From the IMG/VR virus record IMGVR_UViG_3300017971_000755, positions 1-24,155 of that record: a stretch of DNA of 24,155 bases. The stretch is one strand, 5' to 3'. The position numbers and the translations under genes were made by a program. Below the pieces are notes generated by a model. The model saw nothing but the letters and a program-made list of their open reading frames with translations. It searched no databases and was not told the DNA's origin. Positions 2,291 through 22,533 of the stretch are shown in pieces. The first letter of the stretch is position 1. Every line of letters begins with the position of its first letter. Origin of the DNA: a virus.

Positions 2291-3228
2291 AAGTCACGTA
2301 CATTTACGGGTAAAGCAATACAACGACAATTTGGGTGTACAGGTATCATATTACGTACCTCCTCTAGTGAATAGATATTTCCCTCATATCCAGCACACTG
2401 ATCACAAACCCTATCATCCCCAGCAGTAGACCATTCGGCCTGAACTTGTACCCCCTGTATCTGCCAATTCTGATATTCCTGAATGGTAGCCTGATGGTGG
2501 GCACGAATTACCTCGGTACGAGCCAGAGTTTGTGCTCGTCGCTGGGCTGGGATAAATCGTCCTAGACTGTCTCTAATAGCAAGATCACCCACCCCTTCAC
2601 CATTGATGACAGCCACAATTTTACGAGCCAACAGACGAGGATTATCCCCATCGACAAGTCCTTGGGCCAAAACACGACTGATTTGCGTGTCCATTTGAGA
2701 AGTAATACCCTGTAAATCGGTAAACGTACGGGTATAAGCCAACCCAACCCGATCTACGTGAAAAGGAGTAGACATCAGAGCTTCAATCCCTCCTACTTCA
2801 TCCACAGGAGGAATGGTGTACCCTGCCTTATTCATTTCATATCTGGCACGCATTACTCCACGTTTGTAACTGTCATATATATAGATGTTGGTCCAGGCAG
2901 CTTCGGCCGACTCACCAATACGTGTGAATTCACGTGTTTCCAACAATCCTCGATCTATCTGCCTACGCAACCACGACATAAAAGCCTCCACTTTATCTGC
3001 TGTACGAGGGAAGTTGAATTCACCAGGAGCCGGAGGAACCAATTCCTGTAAAGCAGTAATTTTTTGCAATCCAAATACATCTCGGTCGATAATAGCTTCA
3101 CGAATTATCTTAATCAATTCTCGGAAACGACGATTCATATCTCTAACAAACCTATTACGTAATGTTAGAGTACGAGTAGGATCGTATTCATACACCTGTA
3201 ACCGAGTATATGTAATTACATCACACAT
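2287..3228 (-). CDS. Phage Mu F-like head morphogenesis / minor head protein
   Basis: 313 residues from the ATG at 3228, chosen because it overlaps the portal stop (ATGTGTGA), the usual coupling; an upstream in-frame extension to 3306 lies wholly inside the portal gene. The C-terminus has the family signature: LARTEVIRAHHQA, then STAGDDRVCDQCAGYEG (C275, C278) and HPNCRC (298-303), a likely metal-binding Cys/His cluster. Proteins of this family (Phage_Mu_F) sit next to the portal and take part in head assembly, possibly ejected with DNA. The N-terminal half is helical and charged. Its place between portal and the protease module is usual, except for the two sugar-type genes that follow. Confidence 0.9.
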   Translation of the reverse strand: MCDVITYTRLQVYEYDPTRTLTLRNRFVRDMNRRFRELIKIIREAIIDRDVFGLQKITALQELVPPAPGEFNFPRTADKVEAFMSWLRRQIDRGLLETREFTRIGESAEAAWTNIYIYDSYKRGVMRARYEMNKAGYTIPPVDEVGGIEALMSTPFHVDRVGLAYTRTFTDLQGITSQMDTQISRVLAQGLVDGDNPRLLARKIVAVINGEGVGDLAIRDSLGRFIPAQRRAQTLARTEVIRAHHQATIQEYQNWQIQGVQVQAEWSTAGDDRVCDQCAGYEGNIYSLEEVRNMIPVHPNCRCIALPVNVRDL

Positions 3229-4651
3229 TTTCTTCAGTTTCTTCAGTTCCCCCATCTGAGACTTCTTCTTCTTCAGCCTCCTCGGCAAGCCTTTGCTCTT
3301 CTTCAATCATATCAGAAATATACGCATCGGTCATTTCCATAATCTGCTCCACATCATCCGGATCCAATCCTAAAAACCATTTCAGGAAAGCGTCTGGAGA
3401 AACAATTTCCTGAGCCAAAAGATTCTGTGCATAACTTTTTATAGCTTCAGCTCTGGTTTTACCTACTTCAGCCTTATCTTTATCGCTTTCAGAATATAGA
3501 TCTTGCCAATCAACAAAATACTCACCCGTACTAGCTTCGGGTAAAATACCTAACTCAATCATACGATCTACAAAAGGACGGATAATAGTAGGTTCCGCAT
3601 ATTCCTCACGACGGGTCTGTATTGTAGCATACCAACTAGTAATATCCTGCTGAGAAGACAATTCTCCTCTTTCACTACCGGTCAATATACGCTTGGGGAT
3701 GCCTGTCTGAGCGGAGATCATCTGAATAATCACATCCACATGTTTACTAGGATCACTGATCTGTGGTGCTAAATCCTTTAGTTCATACCCTTCAGTCATT
3801 ATAAATCGACGCAAATTGTGTTCATATTCGGCCAATTTCTCTTGCAACTTATCCTCTTCATTTGGACTAATGGTATAATCGTCCTTTAAAACACCCTGAT
3901 ACCCGGGACGAGCACCTCGCCAGAACATCTCAGCACTTCCTCCTACCAATTTTTCCAAATCCATAAGACGATTATACACAGGCTGTAACACAGGAGTTCC
4001 TTCCACTTCTGATTGTAGCATATTAGGAATGACATGAATACACCGAGTATGATGTACCCGCATTTTGGTCATGTCACTATCACTACCGGGATTGTTATAT
4101 TCAATATCATAGGTTTCCACCAATCCATATCTAGGATCCTTAGAATCCTTTACATAAGAAGCGATTTTAGCTACATCACTGGACAGAGGCTTTACATATA
4201 ACAATTTGGGAGTCCTTGAAACGGGTTTTTTGAAATCAGAAACCTGAGGTGTGTCGTCAAATCCTAACAACAATACCCCATAAAAACCAATAGAACTGAG
4301 TTTGTCCAAACGCACAAACTTGCTTTTTAGACTGTGGTGATCCTCCAATTCTTTCCAAGCCTTTTCCAACTTGGTTTCCTGGTCATCTCCTGCCTCACCA
4401 ATAACCAAAGGCCCACGCCATGTGTAACTTACCGGACGGTCGATGATGGCTCTAGCAATGTCTTGACGTAAATATCTAGAGGCATAATCACTGAACCGAA
4501 CAGTTTCTTTGTACCCCAAAGCCTCATACACGTTACGATCCGTTCCATATTGCATTCCCAATAGAGCAGCCAGCCGTGCCCGAGCCAACAGCACAGAGGC
4601 CTCGTGTATGCTTAATACTTTCTTACCCTCAGGGGGTCTTGTACGCTTCAT
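3221..4651 (-). CDS. Portal protein, DUF1073 type
   Basis: 476 residues, a normal length for a portal. Family hallmarks run in order: RFSDYASRYLRQDIARAIID (53-72), IGFYGVLLLGFDD (121-133), DPRYGLVETYDIEY (172-185), HHTRCIHV (200-207), GTPVLQPVYNRLMDLEKLVG (218-237), and ILTGSERGELSSQQD (322-336) followed by WYATIQTRREEY. The C-terminal 30 residues are strongly acidic. The portal forms the dodecameric ring at the head vertex through which DNA is packaged and ejected. The gene lies more than 9 kb downstream of the terminase genes, an unusual separation. The final codons overlap the start of the Mu F-like gene. Confidence 0.92.
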   Translation of the reverse strand: MKRTRPPEGKKVLSIHEASVLLARARLAALLGMQYGTDRNVYEALGYKETVRFSDYASRYLRQDIARAIIDRPVSYTWRGPLVIGEAGDDQETKLEKAWKELEDHHSLKSKFVRLDKLSSIGFYGVLLLGFDDTPQVSDFKKPVSRTPKLLYVKPLSSDVAKIASYVKDSKDPRYGLVETYDIEYNNPGSDSDMTKMRVHHTRCIHVIPNMLQSEVEGTPVLQPVYNRLMDLEKLVGGSAEMFWRGARPGYQGVLKDDYTISPNEEDKLQEKLAEYEHNLRRFIMTEGYELKDLAPQISDPSKHVDVIIQMISAQTGIPKRILTGSERGELSSQQDITSWYATIQTRREEYAEPTIIRPFVDRMIELGILPEASTGEYFVDWQDLYSESDKDKAEVGKTRAEAIKSYAQNLLAQEIVSPDAFLKWFLGLDPDDVEQIMEMTDAYISDMIEEEQRLAEEAEEEEVSDGGTEETEENV

Positions 4652-4655
4652 TTAA

Positions 4656-5063
4656 TTACCCTCCGTTTTTTATCCTTGTTATTTCTGCTTCACGCATCTT
4701 CTTAATCACTGGCACCTTTTTAAATCCGTGACCAGCAATCTTTCCGAATAAAGCATCAAACGCAATACCATGATACAGACAGTTTATTTCATTCAAACTG
4801 TCAATCCCCAACATGGTTTTATGAAACCTGATGGCCAGAAAAATAGTCACCAATACAATGACCAAACGGAACAGATTGTCTTTAACCATAAACCAAAAAT
4901 TGAAGTTATTGGGCATGCTCACATCTGTTTTCAAACTGTGTTTCACATCCGTGTAGAAAAAGAGACCAGCCCCTGCTAAAAAGAAAATGCCAAAAACAGC
5001 ATAATCAGTGGCTGAAAGTGGGCCCAACATCCTATCCCAAAATTCTGACCTATCAAATTCCAT
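4656..5063 (-). CDS. Small membrane protein, two predicted TM segments
   Basis: 135 residues from the ATG at 5063 (MEFDRSEFWDRM). A longer in-frame start at 5108 would place coding sequence across a 9-bp terminator-like hairpin, so the later start is preferred; it has an A-rich leader. Hydrophobic segments lie at about residues 20-37 (YAVFGIFFLAGAGLFFY) and 68-84 (LFRLVIVLVTIFLAIRF), separated by a polar stretch. The tail is basic (KKVPVIKKMREAEITRIKNGG). It ends 4 bases before the portal gene. I do not recognise the family. A second holin-type or lysis-accessory role is possible because of the neighbours, but it could equally be linked to head assembly. Confidence 0.65.
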   Translation of the reverse strand: MEFDRSEFWDRMLGPLSATDYAVFGIFFLAGAGLFFYTDVKHSLKTDVSMPNNFNFWFMVKDNLFRLVIVLVTIFLAIRFHKTMLGIDSLNEINCLYHGIAFDALFGKIAGHGFKKVPVIKKMREAEITRIKNGG

Positions 5064-5080
5064 TTTTCTAGTTTTAAAAT

Positions 5081-5105
5081 AGGATGGGTCCTGAGAACCC
5101 ATCCT
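5081..5105 (-). terminator. Terminator-like hairpin between lysis and head genes
   Basis: A perfect 9-bp stem (AGGATGGGT / ACCCATCCT) with a 7-base loop lies between the holin-like gene and the membrane protein upstream of the portal. On the minus strand it is followed by ATTTTAAAAC, a short T-rich tract. The U tract is weak, so it may attenuate rather than end transcription. Confidence 0.5.
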
Positions 5106-5126
5106 CACGACTTATTCAAAATAGGA

Positions 5127-5543
5127 CTACGGCTGTTTCGTCTTAATCAATCCGATCAAAAACTCAACCACAGTTTTCAGGAAGAGTAAATTACTGGACC
5201 AAATACCATTTGCGGCAAGACCAGATAGTGCTCCCCAAAACAATGTTTCCCACCAAGTCGCTTCTGCGAGATATCCGATATTTACCAACATACCGAAAAA
5301 AGAAACCGCTATTGCTACTAACCACACGGCAGTCACCTTTTGTAATTTGGTAGCCAGTTTTAGCAACCTGATTAAGTACTCCCCAAGAAATGCTGCTATT
5401 CCAGCAATCCCCAAGTAAGTTGCAAAGTAAATCCCATAGTTATCATATAAATCCTGCCAATCCGCAGGAACCTCAACAACTTGGGCAAAAATCGGTGTGA
5501 TGAGTAACATCAAAAAACCGAAAAACAATAAAATCCTTCTCAT
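5127..5543 (-). CDS. Holin-like membrane protein with signal sequence
   Basis: 138 residues. The first 20 residues (MRRILLFFGFLMLLITPIFA) form a signal peptide with a likely cleavage after Ala. Three further hydrophobic stretches follow at about residues 37-60, 68-92 and 98-133. The small size, multiple TM segments and position directly after the DUF5675 endolysin-like gene suggest a holin or related lysis protein. No family signature is recognisable, so the function is inferred from context. The leader is A/T-rich without a Shine-Dalgarno site, and a terminator-like hairpin follows the stop. Confidence 0.55.
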   Translation of the reverse strand: MRRILLFFGFLMLLITPIFAQVVEVPADWQDLYDNYGIYFATYLGIAGIAAFLGEYLIRLLKLATKLQKVTAVWLVAIAVSFFGMLVNIGYLAEATWWETLFWGALSGLAANGIWSSNLLFLKTVVEFLIGLIKTKQP

Positions 5544-5565
5544 GACGTAAAATTTTGATTAAACA

Positions 5566-5997
5566 TTATTCAATTCTAATCCATATCTGTTCACCATTAC
5601 GAATGGCTGTTAGTGTCCTCTCTACAATCAACATCTCATACTTAGTAGAATTAATCACACCACCTTTTATCTTATTCTCACCGGGTAGAATACATCCGTG
5701 TGAATCTTTGGCTGTATTTCCCCGATGAATCCGAATACCTGTAAAATGAGGAACGTCCAATAGAATAGGAAGAACTCGTTTGAACTTTGGGGACATAGTA
5801 AGATCCACCGCATACGTTCCGTAAGGAATGGCCGTTTCACCAAATACCTTCTCCTCGCCAGGATCGTCCAGATCACCGTCCTTGTTTACATCCCTGACCT
5901 TATCCTCGATAGTATCACACACATACAATCCATCGATGAATAAAGATCCGATAGTGTAGTCATCTCCTAGAAATCGTCTCTGTAATTTGAGTTTCAC
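5566..5997 (-). CDS. DUF5675 family protein, probable endolysin-like
   Basis: 143 residues from a GTG at 5997 that overlaps the upstream stop as GTGA; this start gives the usual family N-terminus (KLKLQRRFLGDDYTIGSLFI). No ATG exists at a sensible place; an ATG at 6060 would overlap the preceding gene by 67 bases. The core reads DTIEDKVRD (28-36), TAIPYGTYAV (55-64) and GIRIHRGNTAKDSHGCILPG (87-106), where the His and the SHGC motif look like an L,D-transpeptidase or cysteine-hydrolase active site. DUF5675 proteins are common in phages near lysis genes and are suspected peptidoglycan-active enzymes. An Asp-rich insert DVNKDGDLDDPGEE (36-49) might bind calcium. Enzymatic activity is inference. 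Confidence 0.75.
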   Translation of the reverse strand: MKLKLQRRFLGDDYTIGSLFIDGLYVCDTIEDKVRDVNKDGDLDDPGEEKVFGETAIPYGTYAVDLTMSPKFKRVLPILLDVPHFTGIRIHRGNTAKDSHGCILPGENKIKGGVINSTKYEMLIVERTLTAIRNGEQIWIRIE

Positions 5998-6248
5998 ATC
6001 AAATGTATTAACAAAATCATTCCTACCACAAACACTACTGAAGACAAAGCCACCAACCAAATCCGGTTCCCGGTAGCCATCTTCATGAAATGATGAATGG
6101 GAGCCAGTTCCTCCCTCAACATCTCCCGAAATGCTAATTTGTCCGCTTTCCGTTGCTTATTAAAATACCTGATCACCTCTCCCGGGCAATCCTCGGGCTT
6201 GATGATTGGGATGTTTTCCTTGTTAGTCGTTCCGTGTAAAGAGTCCAT
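5994..6248 (-). CDS. Small C-tail-anchored membrane protein, unknown
   Basis: 84 residues. The first about 60 residues are charged and probably helical (YFNKQRKADKLAFREMLREE). The C-terminus is one membrane segment (IWLVALSSVVFVVGMILLI, about 64-82) that ends almost at the stop. Such an N-in, C-tail-anchored protein next to an endolysin and holin could be a pinholin, anti-holin or spanin-like component; no motif proves this. The stop overlaps the GTG of the DUF5675 gene, so translation is coupled. The start has an A-rich leader. Confidence 0.6.
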   Translation of the reverse strand: MDSLHGTTNKENIPIIKPEDCPGEVIRYFNKQRKADKLAFREMLREELAPIHHFMKMATGNRIWLVALSSVVFVVGMILLIHLM

Positions 6249-6277
6249 AGGTTTATATTTTTGAATTCAACATGGCT

Positions 6278-6895
6278 TCAAAGTTTGTATCCCAACCAAC
6301 CTATCTGTGACCAGTTGATACTAAAGGCCACTCCCACACTCCATATCTTAGTCACGGCACGATCCATAGGTTGCATCTTACTCAAAATGTTCCCATCCGT
6401 GGAAGTTACCCCCACATACAGCGGATCTAATCCCGCCACAGCATTATAATTCAGATCAAAAGTGGCATATCGCCAGAACACATATTCAGCGGTAAACCAC
6501 GGCAGGTGCCTCCATGTCAACCCCCACTTGGTCAGGGCCAGCGTCCCTCCCGCCATTACTATGGCACTTGATCCCTGAAGCACGTGTCCCCAACGCATCT
6601 GCGCCAACCGCTTCGGGTCAGTGTTTGCCTTACCCATATCATACAGCGCATCTCCGGTAGCTTCCAACGAAATGCTGGCCAACTGAACCACCATTACTCC
6701 CAGCGGTAATCGGTTGCGCTCCCACCAGGTCATTCGGGCCACGGGCTTGGGATTGTCGAATTGGCCAATATTCAGCGAAATTTCCGTTTCTGGGGCCAGG
6801 GTGTACTTCGCTACAGGAGTGGAAGGGAAGTATGACATTTGCCCCATTAGATTGATCGAGGCAACCAATAACAATATGGTTAAGCTCCGTTTCAT
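6278..6895 (-). CDS. Secreted or envelope protein with signal peptide, unknown
   Basis: 205 residues from the ATG at 6895, which overlaps the stop of the preceding gene (ATGA). Residues 1-18 (MKRSLTILLLVASINLMG) are a signal peptide, with cleavage probably before QMSYFP. The mature part has two hydrophobic patches (RLPLGVMVVQLASISLEATG and SSAIVMAGGTLAL) and many aromatics, ending in a strand that could close a beta-structure (FSINWSQIGWLGYKL). It may act in the periplasm or outer membrane during infection or lysis. I do not recognise the family. It sits between the adhesin-like genes and the lysis cassette. Confidence 0.6.
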   Translation of the reverse strand: MKRSLTILLLVASINLMGQMSYFPSTPVAKYTLAPETEISLNIGQFDNPKPVARMTWWERNRLPLGVMVVQLASISLEATGDALYDMGKANTDPKRLAQMRWGHVLQGSSAIVMAGGTLALTKWGLTWRHLPWFTAEYVFWRYATFDLNYNAVAGLDPLYVGVTSTDGNILSKMQPMDRAVTKIWSVGVAFSINWSQIGWLGYKL

Positions 6896-7908
6896 TGCTG
6901 TACTCCTTCCGTTATTGGGCCGGGGATAAAACAATCTCCCTCTCCTAAGGTTGGCATATTATAATTTGATGTTGTAAATGTTGAATCTGTCACTGGATTT
7001 GAACCAATATCTACAGTAACTTGAATAAAATCATTACCCAATTCACCACCTCTTGCATATAGAATAAATTCATTATCATTAGTACGAGTTACTTCCACTT
7101 CATACCATGTGTTTATAGACATTGTCCCAATCGAAACTTCTGCCAAAACACTAAATAAAGGATCAGTTGTGATTTTAAATAATCTAATACCATCTCCACC
7201 TCTCCAATCTACACCGTACCCATTAACATCTGGATATGCCCCAACCTTATCCGCAATAAACACAAATCTTCCCCTCCCTGTTGTATCTTCATTAACTTTA
7301 AATTTCCACCGCCAAGTTCCATACGCATAAGGACTATTTATCCCAATTACTGCAGGATTACCACTTACCCGTTCTAGATACTGCTGTCCTTTGTCCAATC
7401 CGGGAAGTGGTGGAATTTCCTCAATACAAATATCATCAATTGTAAAATCAGCATCAACAGGAACGGCATCTGGACTTGTTGCGTGAAGTCTAATGTAAAG
7501 ATATTTATTGCTCCTGCTTACAGTTCCTACAAATTCATATTGTTGATAGCTTGTAGTTAAATTAGGATTAAGGACTTCAATTTTATTATTTAGATCATCA
7601 GGAAAATAAAATCCACGATCATCTATGTTAGAACTTTTAGCCCTAAATCGGATGCGAGCGGCCTGATGTTGTGCAGAGAATATTTCTGCTTTATAGAACC
7701 CAAAAGAGGAACCTGAATTGCTATATGTCACTGTCATATCTTTGGTGGTGGAATTCCATGCCTTAGTAGCAGAATAATTATCCCACCACGCCGTTCCATC
7801 CGTATCAAACTGACTTGAGGCTGCTGGAACAGGAAGTGCAAGTCCAAAATTCAATTCCTTCACCTCATACGACCCTGTCCCTTTTATGAAATGTCCTGAT
7901 AATTCCAT
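6892..7908 (-). CDS. Beta-rich virion protein, probable fibre or adhesin component
   Basis: 338 residues. Residues about 25-165 look like a carbohydrate-binding jelly-roll (FRAKSSNIDDRGFYFPDD, RLHATSPDAVPVDADFTIDD). Residues about 190-310 look like a second concanavalin-like module (GTWRWKFKVNEDTTGRGRF, TWYEVEVTRTNDNEFILYA). It ends 3 bases before the adjacent LamG gene begins on the upstream side and overlaps the next gene by 4 bases, so it belongs to the same fibre cluster. A role in binding host surface polysaccharide is inferred from the module type and the neighbours. Confidence 0.6.
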   Translation of the reverse strand: MELSGHFIKGTGSYEVKELNFGLALPVPAASSQFDTDGTAWWDNYSATKAWNSTTKDMTVTYSNSGSSFGFYKAEIFSAQHQAARIRFRAKSSNIDDRGFYFPDDLNNKIEVLNPNLTTSYQQYEFVGTVSRSNKYLYIRLHATSPDAVPVDADFTIDDICIEEIPPLPGLDKGQQYLERVSGNPAVIGINSPYAYGTWRWKFKVNEDTTGRGRFVFIADKVGAYPDVNGYGVDWRGGDGIRLFKITTDPLFSVLAEVSIGTMSINTWYEVEVTRTNDNEFILYARGGELGNDFIQVTVDIGSNPVTDSTFTTSNYNMPTLGEGDCFIPGPITEGVQQ

Positions 7909-7911
7909 AGT

Positions 7912-10080
7912 CTATATTGTTGATCCGACTCCATGATCGGAAAGTTCAAGTTGCTGTTGTGTTCGTTTGGCGAATTGGTTGTGGTAATCCTTGGCTTGTT
8001 GTTCGTTGAAGGCATAGTTGTGGAATTGAAGATCATAAAGTTCTCCAATAAAAGGATTATTTCCATCTTGATCAGTTGCCAGTACTACTAAATTTGATGA
8101 ATCTGTATTTCCTGTTGCAACCCCTTCCACCAAAACACCATTCACATAAAAAAGCAATAATGTCTCAATATTGACAGCTACAAAATCATATTCCTGTCCT
8201 GCGGTAACAGTTGTTGATTTATTTATAGTTGATCCATCATACAACTGAAGTACCAATGCTCCATTTTTCACATTAATTGCCGTTCTGTCCGTGCCATCAA
8301 TTCCCGAACTTAAAATACATTGCGTTCCGGTTGGATCATAGGTTTTAAATCTCCCAGTTATGGTCCATATCACATCAACTCCAATAAGATCCGATAAATC
8401 TGAGCCAAGATTAATTTTAGGAACACTTTGCGCTTTCTGATCAAACGCCATTCCATTTTTACAATGAGTTCCAAAATTAATAGTACCATTATTCCCCTCC
8501 CCACTAATATCCACCAGCGTACTTCCGTTGGGAATCATGTTGTAGGCAGCGACCAGCCCGGTGACTTTCATTACGGAGAGGACTTCAATCCAGACAGACT
8601 CTCCTGCGGATAAATCAGAGCCTCGTATATACGGAACTGTACCATCATTTTCGATCACTCCAGATGTATAGGTTATTCCCTCTGTATGCCCAACCAAATC
8701 TGTTCGATAAAGCAATGACCCGTTTCGTATTTCAACCCTCGCAGAAGCCCCTTCGCTAAATTTACAGCGAAATACTACAATCATTTTATCACCATCCGCA
8801 AAATCTTCAAACGTTGTATTATCTCCAACAACACGAAGATATTGATAACCTCCGCTGCTATTGTCCACAAAATCCAATTTGACAAAATTACCATCCTGTG
8901 ATTTTGTATTTGACCCATACAAATTCCAAACACTCACATCATTCGCCACAAACCCCACATCAGCATCTGGGACAAGTTCTTCTCCGTTCCATTCTTTGAT
9001 AGAAAAATTAGTAAAAGCAAACGATCCAACTTCGAAACTATTTAAAAATGTAACTACACCAACTGCAGTTGTATTAACAGTTAATAGTACTGCATTATGC
9101 CCAGAAACCGCCCTAACATTACCATCATCAGAAATACTTGATCCCCCTATGGAAACTGCTAAAAATAAAACAGGTAATTGTCCAGTACCAGAACTATCAT
9201 ATTCAACAATATATGTTTTTCCAGCAACAAAACTTATCTCATCAGGAGTGCCAAATCTATGTGTCCCGGAACCATCTGTTGAACCAGAAATAGTTTCTGC
9301 ATTAATACTTGCAAAAGTGGTATATCCACTATTAACCCACGGACTAACATTCAACACTGTAGGATCATACTCCGGCACACCAATCCTACTATCAACCAAA
9401 TGACTCAGATCCGTAGGCTTTGGATAGCTTAATGGAACAGGAACGGACTTTGTGGTTGGACCGGAACGTAAAAATTCTTGATACAAATTGGCTCTCTCAC
9501 TGGCAGTCAGGATATGATCGTAAAACTTAAAATAAGCCATATTGCCCTCAACTTTTCTAGCAACACCACTTCCCTGTGACATTAAATTAATATGAGTTGT
9601 GGATTTTAATGTACCCGAAATAACAGTAGAATCAACAGGATTATCATTACAATAATAAAGTACGGTGTGTGTTGAAACATCGTAAGAGATAATCATCAAC
9701 TTCCAATTAGAATCCTCTATTGGACTATCCCATAAAAAACTTGGATATGCCCCTTCAACTACTTGAGTCAAGAACCTACTGGGTGTAATGCTAATTCCTT
9801 GCATGTATTCTTGTTCCGCTGCTGTTCCAAAAGTTACATAACCTCTCCACAAATCACCAAAAGATGACTTCTTTATTCTCGTAGCCATCACAATAGTCCA
9901 ATCTTGATGAAGATTATACGACTTTTGAAAAGTAATATGAGAATCAGAAGCCGTTGCTCCATCTATTGCTAATCCCTTTTCTGTTTTATGAAAGTTCGTA
10001 TTAACAGATGTTCCAACCACCCCACCAACAGAATCAATCAGCGTTCCTTTCCTGAAATCTATGTCGAATATCTTTCCCAT
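7912..10080 (-). CDS. LamG-domain fibre-like protein (722 aa)
   Basis: Modular beta protein. A first LamG/concanavalin domain spans about residues 1-205 (WTIVMATRIKK, GNMAYFKFYDHILTASERAN). A beta-module at about 240-365 (FGTPDEISFVAGKTYIVEYD ... FAFTNFSIKEW) is related to the repeated modules of the upstream protein. A second CBM-like module lies at about 370-510. A C-terminal LamG domain at about 512-695 has the usual opening LVAAYNMIPNGSTLVDISG and closing FIGELYDLQFHNYAFNEQQA. Such proteins in phages are usually tail or head fibres that bind surface glycans. The ATG overlaps the stop of the preceding gene by one base (TAATG), so the two LamG proteins are made together. Confidence 0.75.
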   Translation of the reverse strand: MGKIFDIDFRKGTLIDSVGGVVGTSVNTNFHKTEKGLAIDGATASDSHITFQKSYNLHQDWTIVMATRIKKSSFGDLWRGYVTFGTAAEQEYMQGISITPSRFLTQVVEGAYPSFLWDSPIEDSNWKLMIISYDVSTHTVLYYCNDNPVDSTVISGTLKSTTHINLMSQGSGVARKVEGNMAYFKFYDHILTASERANLYQEFLRSGPTTKSVPVPLSYPKPTDLSHLVDSRIGVPEYDPTVLNVSPWVNSGYTTFASINAETISGSTDGSGTHRFGTPDEISFVAGKTYIVEYDSSGTGQLPVLFLAVSIGGSSISDDGNVRAVSGHNAVLLTVNTTAVGVVTFLNSFEVGSFAFTNFSIKEWNGEELVPDADVGFVANDVSVWNLYGSNTKSQDGNFVKLDFVDNSSGGYQYLRVVGDNTTFEDFADGDKMIVVFRCKFSEGASARVEIRNGSLLYRTDLVGHTEGITYTSGVIENDGTVPYIRGSDLSAGESVWIEVLSVMKVTGLVAAYNMIPNGSTLVDISGEGNNGTINFGTHCKNGMAFDQKAQSVPKINLGSDLSDLIGVDVIWTITGRFKTYDPTGTQCILSSGIDGTDRTAINVKNGALVLQLYDGSTINKSTTVTAGQEYDFVAVNIETLLLFYVNGVLVEGVATGNTDSSNLVVLATDQDGNNPFIGELYDLQFHNYAFNEQQAKDYHNQFAKRTQQQLELSDHGVGSTI

Positions 10081-12101
10081 TATTTCCCATATAAGTGTTT
10101 CGTTGCTGTGTAATATTGGCTGATCTCTGCGGCTGTCATTAAGCCTTCAAGGAGGATGACTTCTGAGATAAGGCCGTCAAAGGAACGAATATCTGTGGAT
10201 ATATTTCCCAAAATGATATTTGTACTTCCAGCCACTGGAGTCCCAGTATCAGTATCAATTTGAGCAAACAATTCTCCATCCTTGTAAACATAGGTCACTC
10301 CTGTCGATGTTCTGGTGATAATAAAAAGAACAGGATGATGAAAATCATAAGAATCTGCTGCCGCATATATATTATTCACACCACCATCACTGGAAATCCA
10401 TACAGTTCTATAACCACCTTGTTCCCTTATGTAAATTCTTAATTGTCCGTTTTCAAGTAGCCTGCCATAGTTGCCGCCACCATAACTATATGGATTCATC
10501 CAAAATATTATCGTAATATCCCCCGTCAGATCATGATACCCACCACAATCAATCTTACTCGTACTGCCATTAAACCTCGGCACTCGTATTGATCCCTCTT
10601 TGACTACCTCGATGTCTGTGTTGGTGACTTCAGGGATATATTTCTTTACTGATAGGTTGGTTATGGAGTAGTCGGCGGCAGTGGAGATGTTTTGAAATCT
10701 TAATACTCCGGTTGTAGTTTGGTTGCAAGTAAACTCAAATACGTTTGCCCCTGCTGATGCGGTTTGATCCCCTTCGTCACTGCTTGATGCGCCTCCTCCA
10801 TGTGCGGAGATATCACAATTAGGGGCTGTTCCACTATTCAACACAAGATCAAAGGTTACAACATACTTTTGCCCACTTACAAGCGCAATCTCATCAGCCG
10901 TTCTGGCTTTATGAGTGGCAGCCCCGTTTGACGTTGCATCAAATCCGTTGGGTGTTGCATTGGCAAAAGTCGTATAGTCAACATTCTCACAATTACTCAC
11001 ATTCAAATTATCTCCAATACTATCCCCACTCAACAGGTTCCTACATACCCCGCTCCGGGCATTAACATTGAGGATGGGGGAGAGTGGAGCAACAGTCTGT
11101 AATTTTACTGATAGGTTGGAAATAGTAAATTCAGCAGCAGCATTATTAAGAAAGGCAAGTACTCCAGTTGTCGTTGCTGCCGGAGTAAATTCATATACAT
11201 TACTCCCTGATTCTGCTATTGGAGTACCAGTTAAATATCCACCACCGAAACTATATTTTAGAGCAAAATATGGAGCCTGTCCAGAAGTAAGTGTTGCATC
11301 AAATGTTACTATATATTTTTGCCCACTAACAAAAGAGACTTCATCGGCTGTTCCGGCAACTTGTGTACCACTTGTAGTATAAACAGCATGAAATCCGGTG
11401 GCACTTGCACCATCAAATGAATCATACGAATCATTCTCACAATTACTCACATTCAGATCAGCCCCTAATTGTTGAGCCACGTTCAACTGCGGAAGGACAT
11501 AACGGGCATCGTTGTACAGGTTGGAAACTTCTTCGGCGGTGAGAACCTTATTATAACACTGAAATAATTCAATATCTCCATCAAACCTTGCTGTTCCTCC
11601 ACCCAATTTTCCAAACCTATTCAAGGTATATGAATCTTTCGCCGAATAATCATCTGTTGCAACCAATGATCCATCCACATACATTTTCATAGCTAGATTG
11701 TCTGGATCAAGGGTAATAATTACATCATAAATTTGATCATTGTTTAATCCAGATACAGAATAAACAACTAAAGTATTCTTGTCTGTAGATAAACGAAGTT
11801 CATTAGAATAATATCCTATATAACTATAATTTCCTTCAATAAAATTAGAACCAACGGCTACATTATTTGCCGTCTTATCATTTGATGCAAATCTCACCCT
11901 TAAACTACCCGGCTGACCTTTTCTGATAAGAGTAATTGAATTTAATATAATATCAGAACTACTCCCATTAAACGTAGCCATCCCTTTATCAAACACCACA
12001 TCAGTAGGCACACCACCATTGCGCCGCACCTCCTGTTCGGAGTTGAAGTATTCAGCAAATACCAGGTTCTTGTCCAGATTCCGTGCCCTGCGATAACCCA
12101 T
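10080..12101 (-). CDS. LamG-domain fibre-like protein with tandem beta-modules (673 aa)
   Basis: An N-terminal LamG-like domain covers about residues 1-205 (ATFNGSSSDIILNSITLI; DGDIELFQCYNKVLTAEEVS). Two copies of a beta-module follow at about 212-340 and 362-490. Both begin with LNVSNCEN, carry TADEVSFVSGQKYIVTFD or TADEIALVSGQKYVVTFD, then TTTGVL, and end in the strand ITNLSVKK or ISNLSVKL. A C-terminal LamG domain fills about 505-673 (RFNGSTSKIDCGGYHDLTGD; SFDGLISEVILLEGLMTAAE). The protein is probably a receptor-binding or decorating fibre. The duplication is visible also in the DNA (24 identical bases, 450 apart). No enzymatic motif is seen. Confidence 0.75.
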   Translation of the reverse strand: MGYRRARNLDKNLVFAEYFNSEQEVRRNGGVPTDVVFDKGMATFNGSSSDIILNSITLIRKGQPGSLRVRFASNDKTANNVAVGSNFIEGNYSYIGYYSNELRLSTDKNTLVVYSVSGLNNDQIYDVIITLDPDNLAMKMYVDGSLVATDDYSAKDSYTLNRFGKLGGGTARFDGDIELFQCYNKVLTAEEVSNLYNDARYVLPQLNVAQQLGADLNVSNCENDSYDSFDGASATGFHAVYTTSGTQVAGTADEVSFVSGQKYIVTFDATLTSGQAPYFALKYSFGGGYLTGTPIAESGSNVYEFTPAATTTGVLAFLNNAAAEFTISNLSVKLQTVAPLSPILNVNARSGVCRNLLSGDSIGDNLNVSNCENVDYTTFANATPNGFDATSNGAATHKARTADEIALVSGQKYVVTFDLVLNSGTAPNCDISAHGGGASSSDEGDQTASAGANVFEFTCNQTTTGVLRFQNISTAADYSITNLSVKKYIPEVTNTDIEVVKEGSIRVPRFNGSTSKIDCGGYHDLTGDITIIFWMNPYSYGGGNYGRLLENGQLRIYIREQGGYRTVWISSDGGVNNIYAAADSYDFHHPVLFIITRTSTGVTYVYKDGELFAQIDTDTGTPVAGSTNIILGNISTDIRSFDGLISEVILLEGLMTAAEISQYYTATKHLYGK

Positions 12102-12108
12102 AACCGTT

Positions 12109-12609
12109 TTATTTTACAACTTCAGCCTTGTAATATGTCCAGGTACCAGATCCGTCCGAAACGGAACAAGCAATCATTTTGTTTACAACTGCCGCTACCT
12201 GGGCAACGGTGAATATGTCCTGGAATGCGGCCCCTGCTGCCTCTCGCAAAGCAGTCACAGTAGCCGGAGGGGTATTATAAACCGCTGGCGTGCCCTCATC
12301 ATCCGGCACCACGGGATCAGGAGGGATGGCTGGGGTGACCACCCGTTCTCCCCGCATCTCCGTCCGGCACCATTCCTCAATGGCATCTATTTCGTGGTAC
12401 AAGGTGCGTATTGCTTGGCGTGGAACACGGTTGTCCACTTCAGGATAAAACTCTTTCATCCATTGCCGCCAGTTCTGTGGAAGCACCTTTTCAGCGAATC
12501 CATCCAATACTGCCACTTTTTGATCCACACTCATTGCCGCCAGTATCTCAGGAACAGTCGGCTCCGGAGGGGTCGGATCATCGTAATTTGTAAACCCTAA
12601 TCTTGCCAT
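12109..12609 (-). CDS. Hypothetical protein, possible virion-associated
   Basis: 166 residues. The N-terminus has a Pro-rich segment (YDDPTPPEPTVPE), followed by a helical part (AVLDGFAEKVLPQNWRQWMK), a Pro/Asp-rich linker (VVTPAIPPDPVVPDDEGTPA) and a C-terminal domain (FQDIFTVAQVAAVVNKMIAC). The alternation of linkers and small domains fits a structural or adaptor protein. The final codons end 7 bases before the large LamG gene. I do not recognise the family. Confidence 0.55.
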   Translation of the reverse strand: MARLGFTNYDDPTPPEPTVPEILAAMSVDQKVAVLDGFAEKVLPQNWRQWMKEFYPEVDNRVPRQAIRTLYHEIDAIEEWCRTEMRGERVVTPAIPPDPVVPDDEGTPAVYNTPPATVTALREAAGAAFQDIFTVAQVAAVVNKMIACSVSDGSGTWTYYKAEVVK

Positions 12610-12628
12610 GTTTTCTATGTTTTAAATG

Positions 12629-13351
12629 TTAAGCCTTAATTACAATCACATCGGCTGAATTATTCTCCGTAATACCGGAACTGCTCAACCCATATTCCAG
12701 TTTGATCATATACTTGAGAGCGGGGCGGTCCTGAATCCAAAAATAGAATTCCACCGTGTCATTGATACACTCAATCACGAGATCCGAATTGGCCAGGTCA
12801 CTGAATTCATCCGTGACATTTACCCAACCCGTGTCCGCTGAGTCATCCGCATCCGTATCATTGGTCACCCAGATGGAAAAGAACACCGAATCATCCGCCG
12901 AATCAGCGAACAACTTGACATATACCCCCGCATCCTTGTATTCCTCAAAGGGCAACACGTACCGATTGACGTTGTCCACGGTTTCATCCTCTTCCGCTAC
13001 CAATACTATGGGACTGGTGCTATGGGCATATTCCGGATTCAGTACATGAACCATTGGATACCCGTCCAAATCGCTTCCTTTGTTTGGTACCCAAATTTGG
13101 ATATGTAGAATGTCTCCACTGGCCAAAACTGGACCTGCACTGGCCTCAAAAGTAATAACACCACCACTGACTGTACAGTGGGATACGCCAGGAGCCGGAA
13201 CGTGATATAACTTTCCCTGAGTGATGTTGTATACGTGCAGAAGATGTTTAGTCTCCAACGTAAAACTCAATCCGGTGATAGTAATGTTTCGGGAATCGGC
13301 TGTTACGCTGTAGTTGGTTCCCTGATCACCTATTAAAATTACTCCATCCAT
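12629..13351 (-). CDS. Beta-rich hypothetical structural protein
   Basis: 240 residues dominated by alternating hydrophobic and polar residues typical of beta-sandwiches. Two parts can be guessed: residues about 1-95 (NITITGLSFTLETKHLLHVY; ITFEASAGPVLASGDILHIQ) and about 110-240 (GVYVKLFADSADDSVFFSIW; LVIECINDTVEFYFWIQDRP). Acidic runs (DTDADDSADT) may bind calcium. Together with the neighbouring small beta proteins it probably belongs to the virion. No family is recognised, and no signal peptide is seen. Confidence 0.55.
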   Translation of the reverse strand: MDGVILIGDQGTNYSVTADSRNITITGLSFTLETKHLLHVYNITQGKLYHVPAPGVSHCTVSGGVITFEASAGPVLASGDILHIQIWVPNKGSDLDGYPMVHVLNPEYAHSTSPIVLVAEEDETVDNVNRYVLPFEEYKDAGVYVKLFADSADDSVFFSIWVTNDTDADDSADTGWVNVTDEFSDLANSDLVIECINDTVEFYFWIQDRPALKYMIKLEYGLSSSGITENNSADVIVIKA

Positions 13352-16229: not shown

Positions 16230-16260
16230 TTTGCAGTTTAAAAAAATTAGCATAAATTTG
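16230..16260 (+). promoter_or_regulatory. Bacteroidetes-type promoter for the early genes
   Basis: TTTG at 16230-16233 and TAAATTTG at 16253-16260 are separated by 19 bases. They match the known Bacteroidetes primary sigma factor consensus of TTTG at -33 and TAnnTTTG at -7. It points toward the plus-strand block, whose first clear gene starts about 420 bases downstream, implying a long leader. The assignment rests on consensus only. Confidence 0.7.
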
Positions 16261-16271
16261 ACGTAGTCAAA
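16257..16271. promoter_or_regulatory. Operator-like palindrome overlapping the -7 element
   Basis: TTTGACGTAGTCAAA is a perfect inverted repeat (TTTGAC / GTCAAA, 3-base spacer). Its left arm includes the TTTG of the -7 element and its right arm reaches the expected transcription start. A protein bound here would block the promoter. A single half-site, TTTGACG, recurs at 16151-16157 near the terminase start. Confidence 0.5.
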
Positions 16272-16341
16272 CGCTAAAAACAACCACGCTCCTTGAAATT
16301 CTTGATAACCGACTGAGGCTCAGCTTCCTAACGCTAAAAAC
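16270..16341 (+). repeat. Direct repeat AACGCTAAAAAC, two copies 60 bases apart
   Basis: Identical 12-base copies lie at 16270-16281 and 16330-16341. The octamer CTCCTTGA also occurs twice nearby (16289-16296 and 16373-16380), and between them is the palindrome CTGAGGCTCAG (16313-16323). The set lies in the early leader, in a control region rich in repeats; binding sites or a replication origin are possible. Confidence 0.45.
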
Positions 16342-16663
16342 GGCCCCCGAAAATCTGACAAACACAGGTCAACTCCTTGATTTTCAGCCTCCTCAGGATC
16401 CTCCCGATTACTGTGGTTATCCTCCCCCACTGCTCCCGACCAGATCTACTCAGCCAGCCTCGAAAGGGCGGTCAGTACCGAACCGGGTCCAAACCGGAAA
16501 CCGGGACTCATACCGAAAGGGCATTGACAGTAAAGGATAGAATCCTGAAGATTGCGAAGGAGCGACAAAGATGGGAAGGCCTCGGGGAACCTTCCGTTCA
16601 CATGACAGCTAGGGACAATCTCGTGAAGGCCGAGATCACTCATATATTAAGGTGCTCCGCTTA
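16342..16663 (+). ncRNA. Long structured early leader, possible small ORF
   Basis: No gene with an ATG start fills this stretch. The first part is pyrimidine-rich. The second can form several hairpins: AGGAT/ATCCT with a 3-base loop, GGAAGG/CCTTCC, and ATCTCG/CGAGAT with a 7-base loop (about 16615-16633). It should lie in the transcript from the promoter at 16230. One frame from 16377 (TTG) to 16664 stays open for 95 codons and ends KAEITHILRCSA in a TAATG overlap with the box at 16664; its last 45 residues look plausible as protein. I cannot decide between RNA leader, coding sequence, or both. Confidence 0.4.
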
Positions 16664-16677
16664 ATGTCAAACCAAAA
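16664..16677 (+). promoter_or_regulatory. Early leader box, copy 1 (ATGTCAAACCAAAA)
   Basis: First of four identical 14-base copies. It ends 9 bases before the ATG at 16687, a position where a ribosome-binding site would lie. Its ATG overlaps an upstream stop (TAATG). Reading from it would give an 18-codon peptide that overlaps the main start in another frame. Confidence 0.65.
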
Positions 16678-16686
16678 TCATTTAAC

Positions 16687-17073
16687 ATGTCAGTATTTAA
16701 AGAACAAGCCGAAACCTTAACAAAGGTGGCTCAAAACCAAACACGCATCTATAATGATGCCGCCGATTGGGGATACCCCTACAACACCTCAAATCCTCCA
16801 AACGACATTAAGTGGTTGATTGAAACCATCACCCAATTGAAAGAATTGGACGCTCAGTTTCCTGAGGAGAAGCCTATGGTCAGGAATCGCCAAACGTGGG
16901 GAGATGGCGTTTCAGTCGACGTCGTAATATTCTGGGAAAATGACGGAACCGTATACTACGGTACACGGTTTCACGTTTGCTTCAACAAAACGCATAACCA
17001 TCCCTCGCTGCTTGACAAAACCTACAACGCATACATTTCTGTCGATGTTGAGGCTTATGAAGAGGAGGAGTAA
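16687..17073 (+). CDS. Hypothetical early protein (128 aa)
   Basis: A soluble, mixed alpha/beta protein. Helices at the N-terminus (KEQAETLTKVAQNQTRIYND; WLIETITQLKELDAQF) are followed by beta-strands (GVSVDVVIFWENDGTVYYGT) and an acidic tail (VDVEAYEEEE). It is the first gene of the plus-strand block and carries the conserved box directly upstream, so it is probably expressed immediately after infection. Small acidic early proteins often inhibit host functions, but nothing in the sequence indicates a target. Confidence 0.65.
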   Translation: MSVFKEQAETLTKVAQNQTRIYNDAADWGYPYNTSNPPNDIKWLIETITQLKELDAQFPEEKPMVRNRQTWGDGVSVDVVIFWENDGTVYYGTRFHVCFNKTHNHPSLLDKTYNAYISVDVEAYEEEE

Positions 17074-17076
17074 GCT

Positions 17077-17337
17077 ATGGGTATACTAGAAATTTTAAGA
17101 GCCTCTCTGTTGAAGGATGGCTTCCGGGAATTTACCCAATCAGATTGGGATTGCTACGGCGACGCTGAACGTTTCAAAGAAGTTTCTAACAACACCAGCG
17201 ACGAACCTATTATAAAAGAAGATGACGAAAACGAGTGGGTGTTGATTTTAGACAACTCTGGTTTTCACCGCATCGGATACTACCAGGACACTCAGTATTT
17301 TGAGTCCGTATATTTTGATCACCAAATACTAGGATAA
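17077..17337 (+). CDS. Hypothetical early protein (86 aa)
   Basis: A small acidic protein with several Trp, Tyr and Phe residues (EFTQSDWDCYGDAERF; ENEWVLILDNSGFHRIGYYQ). It follows the preceding gene by 3 bases, with GAGGAGGAG just upstream of the ATG inside the end of that gene. No family is recognised. It is likely a soluble accessory protein of the early operon. Confidence 0.6.
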   Translation: MGILEILRASLLKDGFREFTQSDWDCYGDAERFKEVSNNTSDEPIIKEDDENEWVLILDNSGFHRIGYYQDTQYFESVYFDHQILG

Positions 17338-17338
17338 C

Positions 17339-17500
17339 ATGTTTTCACTTAATTGTAGTTACTACACGAAAAAGTTCAGTTCGTTAGACGAAATGCTGAA
17401 CGAGATTATGATTAGTGGGATGGATCCTAATTACGAGATTCTCCACAATGGTCGTAAAACTGGTGAAACCGCTTGGGACCACATCAAATTCATGGTCTAA
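17339..17500 (+). CDS. Small hypothetical early protein (53 aa)
   Basis: A 54-codon frame begins with an ATG one base after the stop of the 86-residue gene. The product starts MFSLNCSYYTKKFSSLDEML and ends ETAWDHIKFMV. The tight spacing and same strand support a real gene; its shortness does not. It contains a helical, Met-rich middle (LNEIMISGMDPNYEIL). The function is unknown. A 6-bp hairpin follows 15 bases after its stop. Confidence 0.5.
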   Translation: MFSLNCSYYTKKFSSLDEMLNEIMISGMDPNYEILHNGRKTGETAWDHIKFMV

Positions 17501-17759
17501 ACTCTTACACCTCTGGGGACAGGTAAAAGTCCCCACCCACGGCTGAACCCCACTGAATGATAGCTCAGATGAGGGACCTGGAAACCCGGTGGAATATACG
17601 GGCTGTAGGTTCGAATCCTACTGAAGCCGCCACAATGAAGACTGGCAAAGTTAGGAACTGAGAGTGTACATATTGGTTCCCGTATCTTTTCACACGACTT
17701 TGGGGTGCGGTCAGGCTGACGAGCCGTGATTGAGCCAGTAAGTACCCCAGGCACTTTTT
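17501..17759 (+). ncRNA. Structured intergenic RNA candidate
   Basis: A gap without a convincing gene, G/C-richer than its surroundings. Visible hairpins: GGGGAC/GTCCCC with an 8-base loop (17515-17534); a perfect T-arm-like hairpin (17605-17621); and GGGGT (17702-17706) pairing with ACCCC (17744-17748) around an inner stem in which GGTCA GGCT pairs with AGCC-TGATT across a GACG loop. It ends at the second copy of the box before the DUF932-like gene. Parts resemble the leader at 16342-16663 (GGAAACC... then GAATCCT... GAAG). It may be a regulatory leader, an attachment site or a processed RNA. Confidence 0.45.
17541..17632 (+). other. tRNA-like element or tRNA-derived attachment site
   Basis: The 3' part is perfect for a tRNA: GTAGG-TTCGAAT-CCTAC T-arm (17605-17621), TGAAGCC acceptor strand (17622-17628), discriminator G and CCA (17629-17632). 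TAGCTCAG (17561-17568) resembles a D-arm start, at nearly the right distance. The 5' acceptor partner GGCTTCA is absent: GGCT at 17541 pairs only partly, and no anticodon arm with U33 can be drawn. It is therefore a degenerate tRNA, a tRNA mimic, or the half-tRNA expected at an attP site; no integrase is in view. Confidence 0.4.
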
Positions 17760-17773
17760 ATGTCAAACCAAAA
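17760..17773 (+). promoter_or_regulatory. Early leader box, copy 2
   Basis: Identical to the other three copies. It ends 11 bases before the ATG of the DUF932-like gene, which has no Shine-Dalgarno site. The overlapping out-of-frame reading from its ATG gives 20 codons (MSNQKFTHHE...). Confidence 0.65.
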
Positions 17774-17784
17774 ATTTACACACC

Positions 17785-18462
17785 ATGAATTATTTACAAA
17801 CACCACTACCCGAGAAAACTAAGAGTTACGCTCCGGTAGGTCACAAAGAACTGATTGAATTTGTTGAGGCCCGATTGGATGCCGCAAAATTCAAACGTAC
17901 TACTATGTCTGTAGATCAAAACAAAGAAGGTACAATTATTGTTGCCAACATGGGAATTCAGCGTAAGGAGGTAAAAGACTTCCACCAGGAATTCAGCATC
18001 ATCAATTCCTACAACAAAAGCAAGCCTGTTACCTTTGCCAGTGGTGCACGGGTATTCGTTTGTGAAAACGGAATGATCATCAGCGAGGCCGTTACGGTTC
18101 GCCGTCACACCACCAACGTCTGGAACGAACTGGGTGAAAAAGCTGATACCGCCATCGCTCAGTTGGAAGCAAACTGGCAGAAGACTCTGGCTGACGTCAA
18201 TAAAATGAAGGAAGTTGAACTGACCATGACCAGAGCCTCTGAACTGATGGGACGGATCTTCGTTGAGGAAAAGATCCTGCGTCCCACCGAAGTTACTACT
18301 GCCGTACGGGAGCTGCGCAAACCATCGTTTGGTGAATTTGCTGCTCTGACCCTGTGGTCAATGTACAATGCCTGTACCTACGCTCTGAAAGAAGCACACG
18401 CTTACCGCAAAAACGACAGTCTGAAGTCACTCCATGATTTCTGTCTGAAAGTTGCTGAATAA
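17785..18462 (+). CDS. DUF932-like protein
   Basis: 225 residues. The N-terminal half shows the pattern of DUF932 proteins of phages and plasmids: SYAPVGHKELIEFVEARLDA, a strand IVANMGIQRKEV, EFSIINSYNKSKPVTFASGA (a conserved NSYDKS-like motif) and VFVCENGMIISEA. The C-terminal half is helical, with a long charged segment (ALKEAHAYRKNDSLKSLHDF). The function of the family is not known; members are common in phage early regions near recombination or anti-restriction genes. The gene opens a new cluster behind a structured gap and the conserved box. The start is fixed by the box spacing. Confidence 0.7.
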   Translation: MNYLQTPLPEKTKSYAPVGHKELIEFVEARLDAAKFKRTTMSVDQNKEGTIIVANMGIQRKEVKDFHQEFSIINSYNKSKPVTFASGARVFVCENGMIISEAVTVRRHTTNVWNELGEKADTAIAQLEANWQKTLADVNKMKEVELTMTRASELMGRIFVEEKILRPTEVTTAVRELRKPSFGEFAALTLWSMYNACTYALKEAHAYRKNDSLKSLHDFCLKVAE

Positions 18463-18492
18463 AGGCATACCGATGAAGATTCATTATCAGAA

Positions 18493-18515
18493 ACCGGGTC
18501 ACGAGTTGGCTCGGT
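18493..18515 (+). ncRNA. Hairpin in the leader of the DUF2786-like gene
   Basis: ACCGGG (18493-18498) pairs with CTCGGT (18510-18515), including one G-U pair, around an 11-base loop. The stem ends two bases before the third copy of the box. It repeats the layout of hairpin, box and start codon seen at the other early cluster starts. Confidence 0.4.
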
Positions 18516-18517
18516 CT

Positions 18518-18531
18518 ATGTCAAACCAAAA
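18518..18531 (+). promoter_or_regulatory. Early leader box, copy 3
   Basis: Identical 14-base copy ending 8 bases before the ATG at 18540. The overlapping out-of-frame reading from its ATG gives 14 residues (MSNQNCYYVTRTYY). Confidence 0.65.
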
Positions 18532-18539
18532 CTGTTATT

Positions 18540-19076
18540 ATGTCACACGAACGTATTATTGAACTCGCACAGAAATTGAAAGCTCTCTCCGAACGAGGAG
18601 TAGGAGGAGAGCGTGAAAATGCCATTGACAAGCTGGATCGACTGATGCAGCGTCACAAAATTACCTTTGATGATCTAGAGACTGAAACTCGCCACTTGCG
18701 TACTTTCAGATTTCGCAACCGGTATGACCGTGACATACTCATTCAAATCATGTTCAAAGTACTGAACGTACGATCGATGCGTATATCCCATGATCGTGGT
18801 ACTCGTGGAATGCGTAAGATACAGGTGACTGATGCCGAATACTTGGAGATCACAGCCATGCACGAATTCTACTGGAAAGCCTTCAAACGTGAGATGAAGA
18901 TCTTCGTCGACGCTTTTATCCAAAAGAACCGTCTGTTCCCAGATAGTGCTGGTCCCGGTAAAGATATCAGTGAACTATCCCCTCGTGAATGGGATAGATT
19001 GGTGAAGATGAGTGGTATGATGGAGGGGATGGAAACTTATGTCCCTCCTACCAGAGGACTACATGAGAATAACTAA
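18540..19076 (+). CDS. DUF2786-like protein
   Basis: 178 residues. Residues 1-47 match the DUF2786 pattern: an N-terminal helix (RIIELAQKLKALSERG), E-A-like helix (ERENAIDKLDRLMQRHKITF) and DDLE. The remainder is rich in Arg and Met (HLRTFRFRNRYDRDILIQIM) with an MHEFYWKAFKREMKIFVDAF helix. The family occurs in phages and bacteria and has no settled function. The stop overlaps the fourth copy of the box (TAATG), so the 3' end doubles as the leader of the next gene; it contains a GGAGGG/CCCTCC hairpin at about 19022-19049. Confidence 0.65.
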   Translation: MSHERIIELAQKLKALSERGVGGERENAIDKLDRLMQRHKITFDDLETETRHLRTFRFRNRYDRDILIQIMFKVLNVRSMRISHDRGTRGMRKIQVTDAEYLEITAMHEFYWKAFKREMKIFVDAFIQKNRLFPDSAGPGKDISELSPREWDRLVKMSGMMEGMETYVPPTRGLHENN

Positions 19077-19089
19077 TGTCAAACCAAAA
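19076..19089 (+). promoter_or_regulatory. Early leader box, copy 4
   Basis: Identical 14-base copy that begins inside the stop codon of the DUF2786-like gene and ends 11 bases before the ATG at 19101. An out-of-frame reading gives 20 residues (MSNQKSLENE...). Confidence 0.65.
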
Positions 19090-19100
19090 ATCACTTGAAA

Positions 19101-19376
19101 ATGAGATTCAGAATCACCGACCTATTCAAAAGTCGTAAAACCAAAATTCGGGAACAAGCCCACTTGCCTATTCTCCCACCACCTCCTAAGAAAAAGGAGC
19201 CGGAAGAAAACCTGATCCCTCAGAAAGGTCCTAAAACACGTCGTTCTATTTATTCACATGGATATGGCGCAAGCTCTACCAAGAACAATTACATGCTGAA
19301 TTTGAAGAACAAAAGCAAGCGTCGTAAGAAGAACCGAATAGCTCGTCGTCAAAGAGTCTTAAACGCAAAAAGATGA
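19101..19376 (+). CDS. Very basic small protein, possible nucleic-acid binder
   Basis: 91 residues from the ATG at 19101; a TTG two codons earlier is less likely. Almost a third of the residues are Lys or Arg, gathered at the N-terminus (FKSRKTKIRE) and C-terminus (KNKSKRRKKNRIARRQRVLN), with a Pro-rich middle (LPILPPPPKKKEPEE). Such composition suits binding of DNA, RNA or ribosomes. It resembles no family I can name. The stop lies 4 bases before the next gene, indicating a shared transcript. Confidence 0.55.
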   Translation: MRFRITDLFKSRKTKIREQAHLPILPPPPKKKEPEENLIPQKGPKTRRSIYSHGYGASSTKNNYMLNLKNKSKRRKKNRIARRQRVLNAKR

Positions 19377-22146: not shown

Positions 22147-22533
22147 ATGAACAAACGTAACCGTAAAGTGAGTTGGGCACCCAATGAGGTGCCTCACTCA
22201 CATTTTTTGATCCTATGGTCCATCGTTTGGACCTATCACCAACAAACGGGACATGACCCAGAAGATTTATTTGGTGAAGCAAGTTTGAAATATTGTTTAT
22301 GTCGTGATCGGTGGAACCGTAAAAGAGGTGAATTCAGTACCTATCTATACACCGTAATCCCAAACCATTTAAAAGATTACCTTTGGAAGAATTGGGATAT
22401 AGGAAAACGTATAAAACTACCAGATGGTACAAACACACCTTTGCAATTTATACCCTTGGAACATGTTGAGCAACTGTTGCTTAAACTAGAAGAAGAACGA
22501 GCCAACAGGGAATGTCAAATATTTTCCGTATAA
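22147..22533 (+). CDS. Sigma-70 region 2-like protein without region 4
   Basis: 128 residues. The middle part has the order of a sigma-70 region 2: GHDPEDLFGEASLKYCLCRD (helix with the D-x-x-D-L-x-x-E pattern), RKRGEFSTYLYTV (equivalent of F-S-T-W/Y-L) and IPNHLKDYLWKN (R-N-x-x-x-D-x-x-R-K-like). After it come only about 45 residues, too few for a region 4 HTH. It might redirect host RNA polymerase to phage promoters with a partner, act as an anti-sigma decoy, or be a DNA-binding protein that only shares the fold. It sits between helicase and primase with an A-rich leader. Confidence 0.6.
   Translation: MNKRNRKVSWAPNEVPHSHFLILWSIVWTYHQQTGHDPEDLFGEASLKYCLCRDRWNRKRGEFSTYLYTVIPNHLKDYLWKNWDIGKRIKLPDGTNTPLQFIPLEHVEQLLLKLEEERANRECQIFSV

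Follow-up and report, generated by a model that had tools for sequence, protein, structure and literature searches.

The analysed DNA (the window) was a 24-kb virus record with terminase and portal, the structural genes, on the minus strand. A plus-strand arm began at about 16.2 kb and comprised a non-coding stretch, four genes preceded by a repeated box, an SNF2 helicase gene and the genes of a sigma-70 region 2 protein and a primase-like protein (Table 1). Because the terminase had its nearest known-phage relatives in Cellulophaga and Croceibacter phages, a host in Bacteroidota is likely. The 128-aa product of 22147–22533 matched sigma-70 region 2, with no region 4 found, and is a possible phage transcription factor. 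A relative represented by contigs L007 and L057 had the same gene order at about 65% DNA identity. The non-coding segment opening the early arm (16253–16432) was 82% identical to L007 2989–3171, against about 65% for coding DNA, and it contained an identical block longer than 40 nt together with the complementary segments GATAACC and GGTTATC; it probably represents structured RNA or an early leader. In a hairpin at 16573–16596, the loop region CCTCGGGGAA was kept in L007 and the stem differed (GGAAGG/CCTTCC in the window, GAGCAG/CTGCTC in L007).

Table 1. Boxes, candidate RNA elements and genes of the plus-strand early arm (window coordinates).
Feature	Position	Strand	Remarks
Candidate twister-sister before/into box 1	16601–16673	+	RF02681, 30.1 bits; predicted cut 16662^16663
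Box 1	16664–16677	+	Exact repeat
Gene behind box 1	16687–17073	+	128 aa, no family
tRNA-like element with a terminal CCA, before box 2	17541–17632	+	Motif and T-arm common to L007, L015, L279 and L353
Box 2, before DUF932 gene	17760–17773	+	Exact repeat; 14/14 in L007 at 3485
Gene behind box 2	17785–18462	+	DUF932 protein
Predicted type-I hammerhead before box 3	18464–18522	+	R1 covariance model; canonical homologue L007 4201–4259
Box 3, opens predicted 23-nt leader of DUF2786-like gene	18518–18531	+	Exact repeat; R1 hammerhead
Gene behind box 3	18540–19076	+	phrog_421; weak DUF2786 match, below Pfam cut-off
Box 4, overlaps stop codon of preceding gene	19076–19089	+	Exact repeat
Gene behind box 4	19101–19376	+	91 aa, basic protein; TTG start at 19095 possible alternative

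The box, ATGTCAAACCAAAA, occurred in four exact copies, all on the plus strand, and no further exact copy was present in the record. It was the sole 14-mer with at least three copies in the window, and in 200 dinucleotide shuffles of the window the maximum for any 14-mer was two. The four boxes are real and far beyond chance. They ended 9, 11, 8 and 11 bases before the start codons of the genes behind them, so that the sites, the strand and the spacing described in an earlier note on this DNA were all found again; counted from the first base of the box, the distance to the start codon was 22–25 bases. The box does not encode a common N-terminus, because the offset between its ATG and the gene start varied (23, 25, 22 and 25), and a coding meaning, as a peptide or an upstream ORF, was ruled out since the frames of box and gene differed. 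It was also correctly stated in the note that the box is no Shine–Dalgarno sequence, as it has neither a G run nor GGAGG and no complementarity to the CCUCC of the 16S tail.

Contig L005, 99.98% identical to the window, carried boxes 2–4, which are therefore not assembly errors. The proposed link of the box to gene starts held within the record, where every exact copy preceded a start, and extended to L007/L057, where two boxes were kept 14/14. One of these preceded the DUF932 homologue and corresponded to box 2; the second fronted a gene non-homologous to any window counterpart, which indicates that the box was kept while the gene behind it changed. Most of the exact matches in viral_contigs were coding or chance sites. 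A look-alike at 20053, listed in the note as a weaker copy before the helicase gene, was out of register, lying closer to the start codon than the boxes do, and was not kept in L007.

Upstream of box 3 and reaching into it, a hammerhead was recognised with the R1 covariance model, which had been trained on 20 hammerheads from other phages with the window and L007 left out. The match scored 35.3 bits (E 2.9e-8), and the runner-up site in the window 12.6 bits. Many R1 sequences had been chosen by a pairing rule, so the count of covarying pairs is inflated and partly built in; the placement and the independent matches are unaffected. The hammerhead consisted of stem I (18464–18469 paired with 18517–18522), the core CCGAUGA (18470–18476, a U4C variant with one change from CUGANGA), the stem II arm (18477–18489), GAA (18490–18492), stem III (18493–18515) and C17 at 18516. 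In the predicted fold, open at stem I, stems I and III were paired and stem II, three pairs long, had a basal A-A mismatch. The required GAA, the A15.1–U16.1 pair and a non-G position 17 were present (GAA-A...U-C^U, 18490–18517). Cleavage is predicted at 18516^18517, one base 5' of the box, with the first five bases of the box lying in the 3' strand of stem I.

The U4C core was common to box 3 of the window, L329/L362 and L299. It is described in PMC3088659 as a known natural variant, weak in vitro and sufficient for viroid infectivity. With this change and the mismatch in stem II, the box-3 ribozyme may be slow. At the corresponding site of L007, the second box was part of a complete canonical type-I hammerhead with all three stems (GGCAUA-CUGAGGA-GCUG..CAGC-GAA-ACGGG..CCCGU-C^UAUGUCAAACCAAAA), which scored 46.2 bits with R1 and in which the start of the leader formed the 3' strand of stem I. 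Neither the L007 nor the window copy was reported by the Rfam hammerhead models, and Rfam at gathering scores together with ARAGORN gave no match anywhere in the window. At the level of sequence, the hammerhead fold, its conservation and its placement, like that of the boxes, before gene starts are well supported.

Boxes 1 and 2 were accompanied by different candidate elements. The twister-sister match at box 1 (E 4e-4) lay below the RF02681 gathering score of 34 and did not appear in the output of a faster search; there was one copy only, with none found in 39 related records. Around the cleavage step, GCUAG and GCUU^AA agreed with G5, C6, A8, G9, G59, C60, U61 and A63, and the departures were C62 to U and U64 to A (for the residues around the C62–A63 step, see PMC5660989). 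As at box 3, the predicted cut falls one base before AUGUC. A twister-sister ribozyme at box 1 is suggestive only.

The element upstream of box 2 combined a T-arm with a conserved AUGANAGC loop. Its copy in L007 scored 20.3 bits with the Rfam tRNA model, below the gathering score of 29, and the window element was not called by ARAGORN, so it is referred to as tRNA-like only. In three relatives it stood directly before a leader and gene start, namely at the first box of L007, about 12 nt before an exact box in L015 and before a similar leader in L279; in the window, box 2 sits 127 nt past it. Processing at the 3' end of this element is a reasonable guess. Upstream of box 4 no recognisable processing element was detected with R1, the Rfam hammerhead models or alternative layouts, and alternative-layout hammerheads at boxes 1, 2 and 4 lacked a usable core strand. 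Because the box occurs both with and without ribozymes, we read it as combining two functions in one sequence, a stem I strand and a translation leader.

The same arrangement was found in other phages. A terminase homology query, which carried no RNA bias, yielded 80 loci. Among them, L291 had three canonical hammerheads, each with its predicted cut directly before a NNNGUCAAACUAAAA leader, and L329 had two, one of which shared the box-3 U4C core and stem I and was followed by a UAUGUCAAA leader; one hammerhead each was present in L299, L277, L312/L316 and L315. A scan for GGCATACYGATGA..GAAA..TATGTCAAA revealed 22 contigs with a hammerhead of the window-type stem I, and phages with the stem I GGUUAA/UUAACC carried up to four hammerheads per genome. 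In L054 the exact window box followed a hammerhead whose stem III loop was long. A canonical three-stem hammerhead also preceded QMP84841.1 of the cultured Flavobacterium phage vB_FspP_elemoC_14-1A, the host of which is known.

In the loci examined, an ORF start lay 15–45 nt downstream of 52 of 54 distinct hammerheads (median 25, IQR 23–26), compared with 63 of 207 shifted positions and 11 of 54 on the opposite strand; start codons had played no part in finding the 54. Beyond stem I, A made up 56% of the leader bases and G 4%. Where the opening bases of the leader differed from phage to phage, the opposite strand of ribozyme stem I changed with them. It appears from these patterns that RNA enzymes in dozens of phages cut the early messages about 25 bases ahead of many gene starts.

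A particular case was L131, a 66-kb syntenic relative with the gene order of the window, in which the leader UUAACCAAUAAAAACGUUGU..AUG was present in nine copies before early genes. Eight of the nine lay directly behind GAAA-stem III-U-H, the 3' half of a hammerhead, which ended exactly at the leader (background about 6e-4 per position). A cis core strand was found at the first leader copy only; seven of the eight had GACC and no cis core strand, and the sole GGUUAA-CUGAUGA of the contig was located at the first copy, in a closed domain that also offers GGUC. A trans-acting hammerhead is the simplest reading of L131. In ViennaRNA, with the closing helix omitted, the trans hammerhead junction formed at a mean of -10.6 kcal/mol, which was equalled by none of 300 shuffled-arm controls. 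Cofolding with the whole enzyme domain gave no useful pairing; the closing helix creates a pseudoknot, which is beyond that method. The replacement of stem II by several helices is unusual, which makes the activity uncertain. The broader proposal that the L131 hammerhead acts in trans on its own mRNAs and that, across the group, hammerhead, twister-sister and tRNA-like elements have converged on one leader is put forward tentatively, the balance being somewhat against it. To our knowledge, no natural trans-acting hammerhead has been described, and this one, if true, would be the first of its kind.

Around L131 several further observations were made. The stem III hairpins of box 3 and of the first L131 hammerhead (about 3805–3827) had a common loop, GGUCACGAGUUGGC, and their stems differed by compensating changes (CCGGG/CUCGG versus CCCGG/CUGGG) in phages about 50% identical in protein. 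No L131-type box and no hammerhead was detected in L364, a terminase relative of L131. A GACCGAAA..TTAACCAA pattern tried for relatives of L131 was rejected as it gave mostly chance matches, yet it revealed the UUAACC hammerhead phages.

It is quite probable, judging from these arrangements, that mature early mRNAs open with a standard leader of about 22–26 nt, the box being its 5' portion, and that this leader is released by cutting at an RNA element upstream. A polycistronic early transcript would be cut by such elements one base before the box or nearby. At box 3 this would be done by the hammerhead, with UAUGUC of the leader serving as the 3' strand of stem I; at box 1 probably by a twister-sister ribozyme pairing with the same leader bases; and at box 2 a processed tRNA-like element may release the leader. 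The released mRNA would have a 5'-OH end, and its leader, unstructured, rich in A and poor in G, would be fit for initiation without Shine–Dalgarno pairing; the hairpins of the ribozyme would stay behind on the 3' end of the upstream mRNA, possibly with consequences for mRNA stability. Cleavage itself, the 5' ends it would leave, the function of the leader and any influence on translation or stability are inferred, as is the manner of release at boxes 1, 2 and 4.

In the earlier note the box was suggested to be a translation enhancer, and part of that view stands: the box is tied to early gene starts, and its A-rich second half likely aids translation; the ribozymes upstream had been missed. 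In its pure form, as an enhancer for a host initiating without Shine–Dalgarno pairing, with the hammerheads incidental at some copies, this explanation would account for box 4, which has no ribozyme, and for the A-rich leader half common to different leader types. It also finds parallels in two other phages, since the repeated leader of L126 occurs without hammerheads, showing that a repeated leader needs no ribozyme, and that of L133 contains a Shine–Dalgarno site. However, it leaves unexplained why the 5' end of the leader and the ribozyme strand pairing with it differ in concert from one phage to another, and why a genome can hold as many as four hammerheads, all at a constant spacing from gene starts. 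Enhancement as the sole function is therefore considered improbable.

Exact repeats close to early gene starts would also suit binding by a phage-encoded translational repressor that recognises RNA, the other function offered in the note. However, at box 3 the opening bases of the box form the 3' strand of stem I and are thus paired in the upstream ribozyme, and across dozens of phages these bases co-vary with their upstream partner rather than keeping to one fixed protein site. No candidate repressor was found, and a repressor target is very unlikely. A promoter read by a sigma factor of the phage or the host, for which repetition on a single strand of the early region and the sigma-70 region 2 protein might speak, conflicts with the pairing of box 3, as RNA, with the strand upstream and with the position of box 4 on the end of a coding gene; moreover, in the window and L007 the boxes had no other conserved sequence upstream. 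It is given even slightly less credence than the repressor target.

The leader-release scheme has a protein-based parallel. RNase III cuts the polycistronic early RNA of phage T7 between genes, giving mRNAs with 3' hairpins. Early RNA cut between genes and 3' hairpins left behind are common to T7 and the proposed scheme, but in T7 a host protein cuts, whereas here the catalyst would be RNA. As a system found in many phages, one of them a cultured Flavobacterium phage, the hammerheads make RNA catalysis of early mRNA processing, after the manner of T7, directly open to test. We know of no proof of a role for most bacterial and phage hammerheads.

Hammerheads as such are already known, including the HHphage copy of the haloviruses HF1/HF2, which lies 13 nt upstream of an early helicase start codon and for which a transcript 5' end was mapped at most 3 nt from the cleavage site (PMC3088659). 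It resembles the present ones in standing shortly upstream of an early gene start, but it occurs singly, has an atypical core, belongs to archaeal viruses and has no leader repeated over several genes. The same source describes hammerheads flanking ardA in Agrobacterium tumefaciens, several of them active between phage-associated genes of one transcript; the several copies within one transcript and the phage-associated genes are alike, whereas a constant leader at a fixed distance before starts is not described in the part available. HDV-like theta ribozymes of gut phages are likewise self-cleaving RNAs engaged in phage RNA processing near tRNAs, but belong to another ribozyme class and are tied to suppressor tRNAs rather than to leaders of mRNAs (PMC10879173). 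Serial, gene-by-gene phage hammerheads with a constant leader were not reported in the literature searched, which covered few subscription journals. The hammerheads described here form a system, being repeated per genome about 25 nt before early starts, with a constant leader, in many phages. This suggests how phages of hosts without Shine–Dalgarno initiation could standardise the 5' ends of their mRNAs.

Repeated leaders of other kinds were also noticed in related phages. L126 had a leader of its own, AAAACCTTAAAA, at several sites from 2925 to 13244 without ribozymes, and L133 had one of the Shine–Dalgarno type, AAGGAGCACGACAATG, at several sites from 1724 to 9552. Among Pelagibacter-type phages, R1 hammerheads were located at 596–655 of L366 (AP013542.1, 49.4 bits) and at 596–656 of L367 (MT375528.1, Pelagibacter phage Jormungand, 45.0 bits), and similar matches to the hammerhead core were present in HTVC019P and others.
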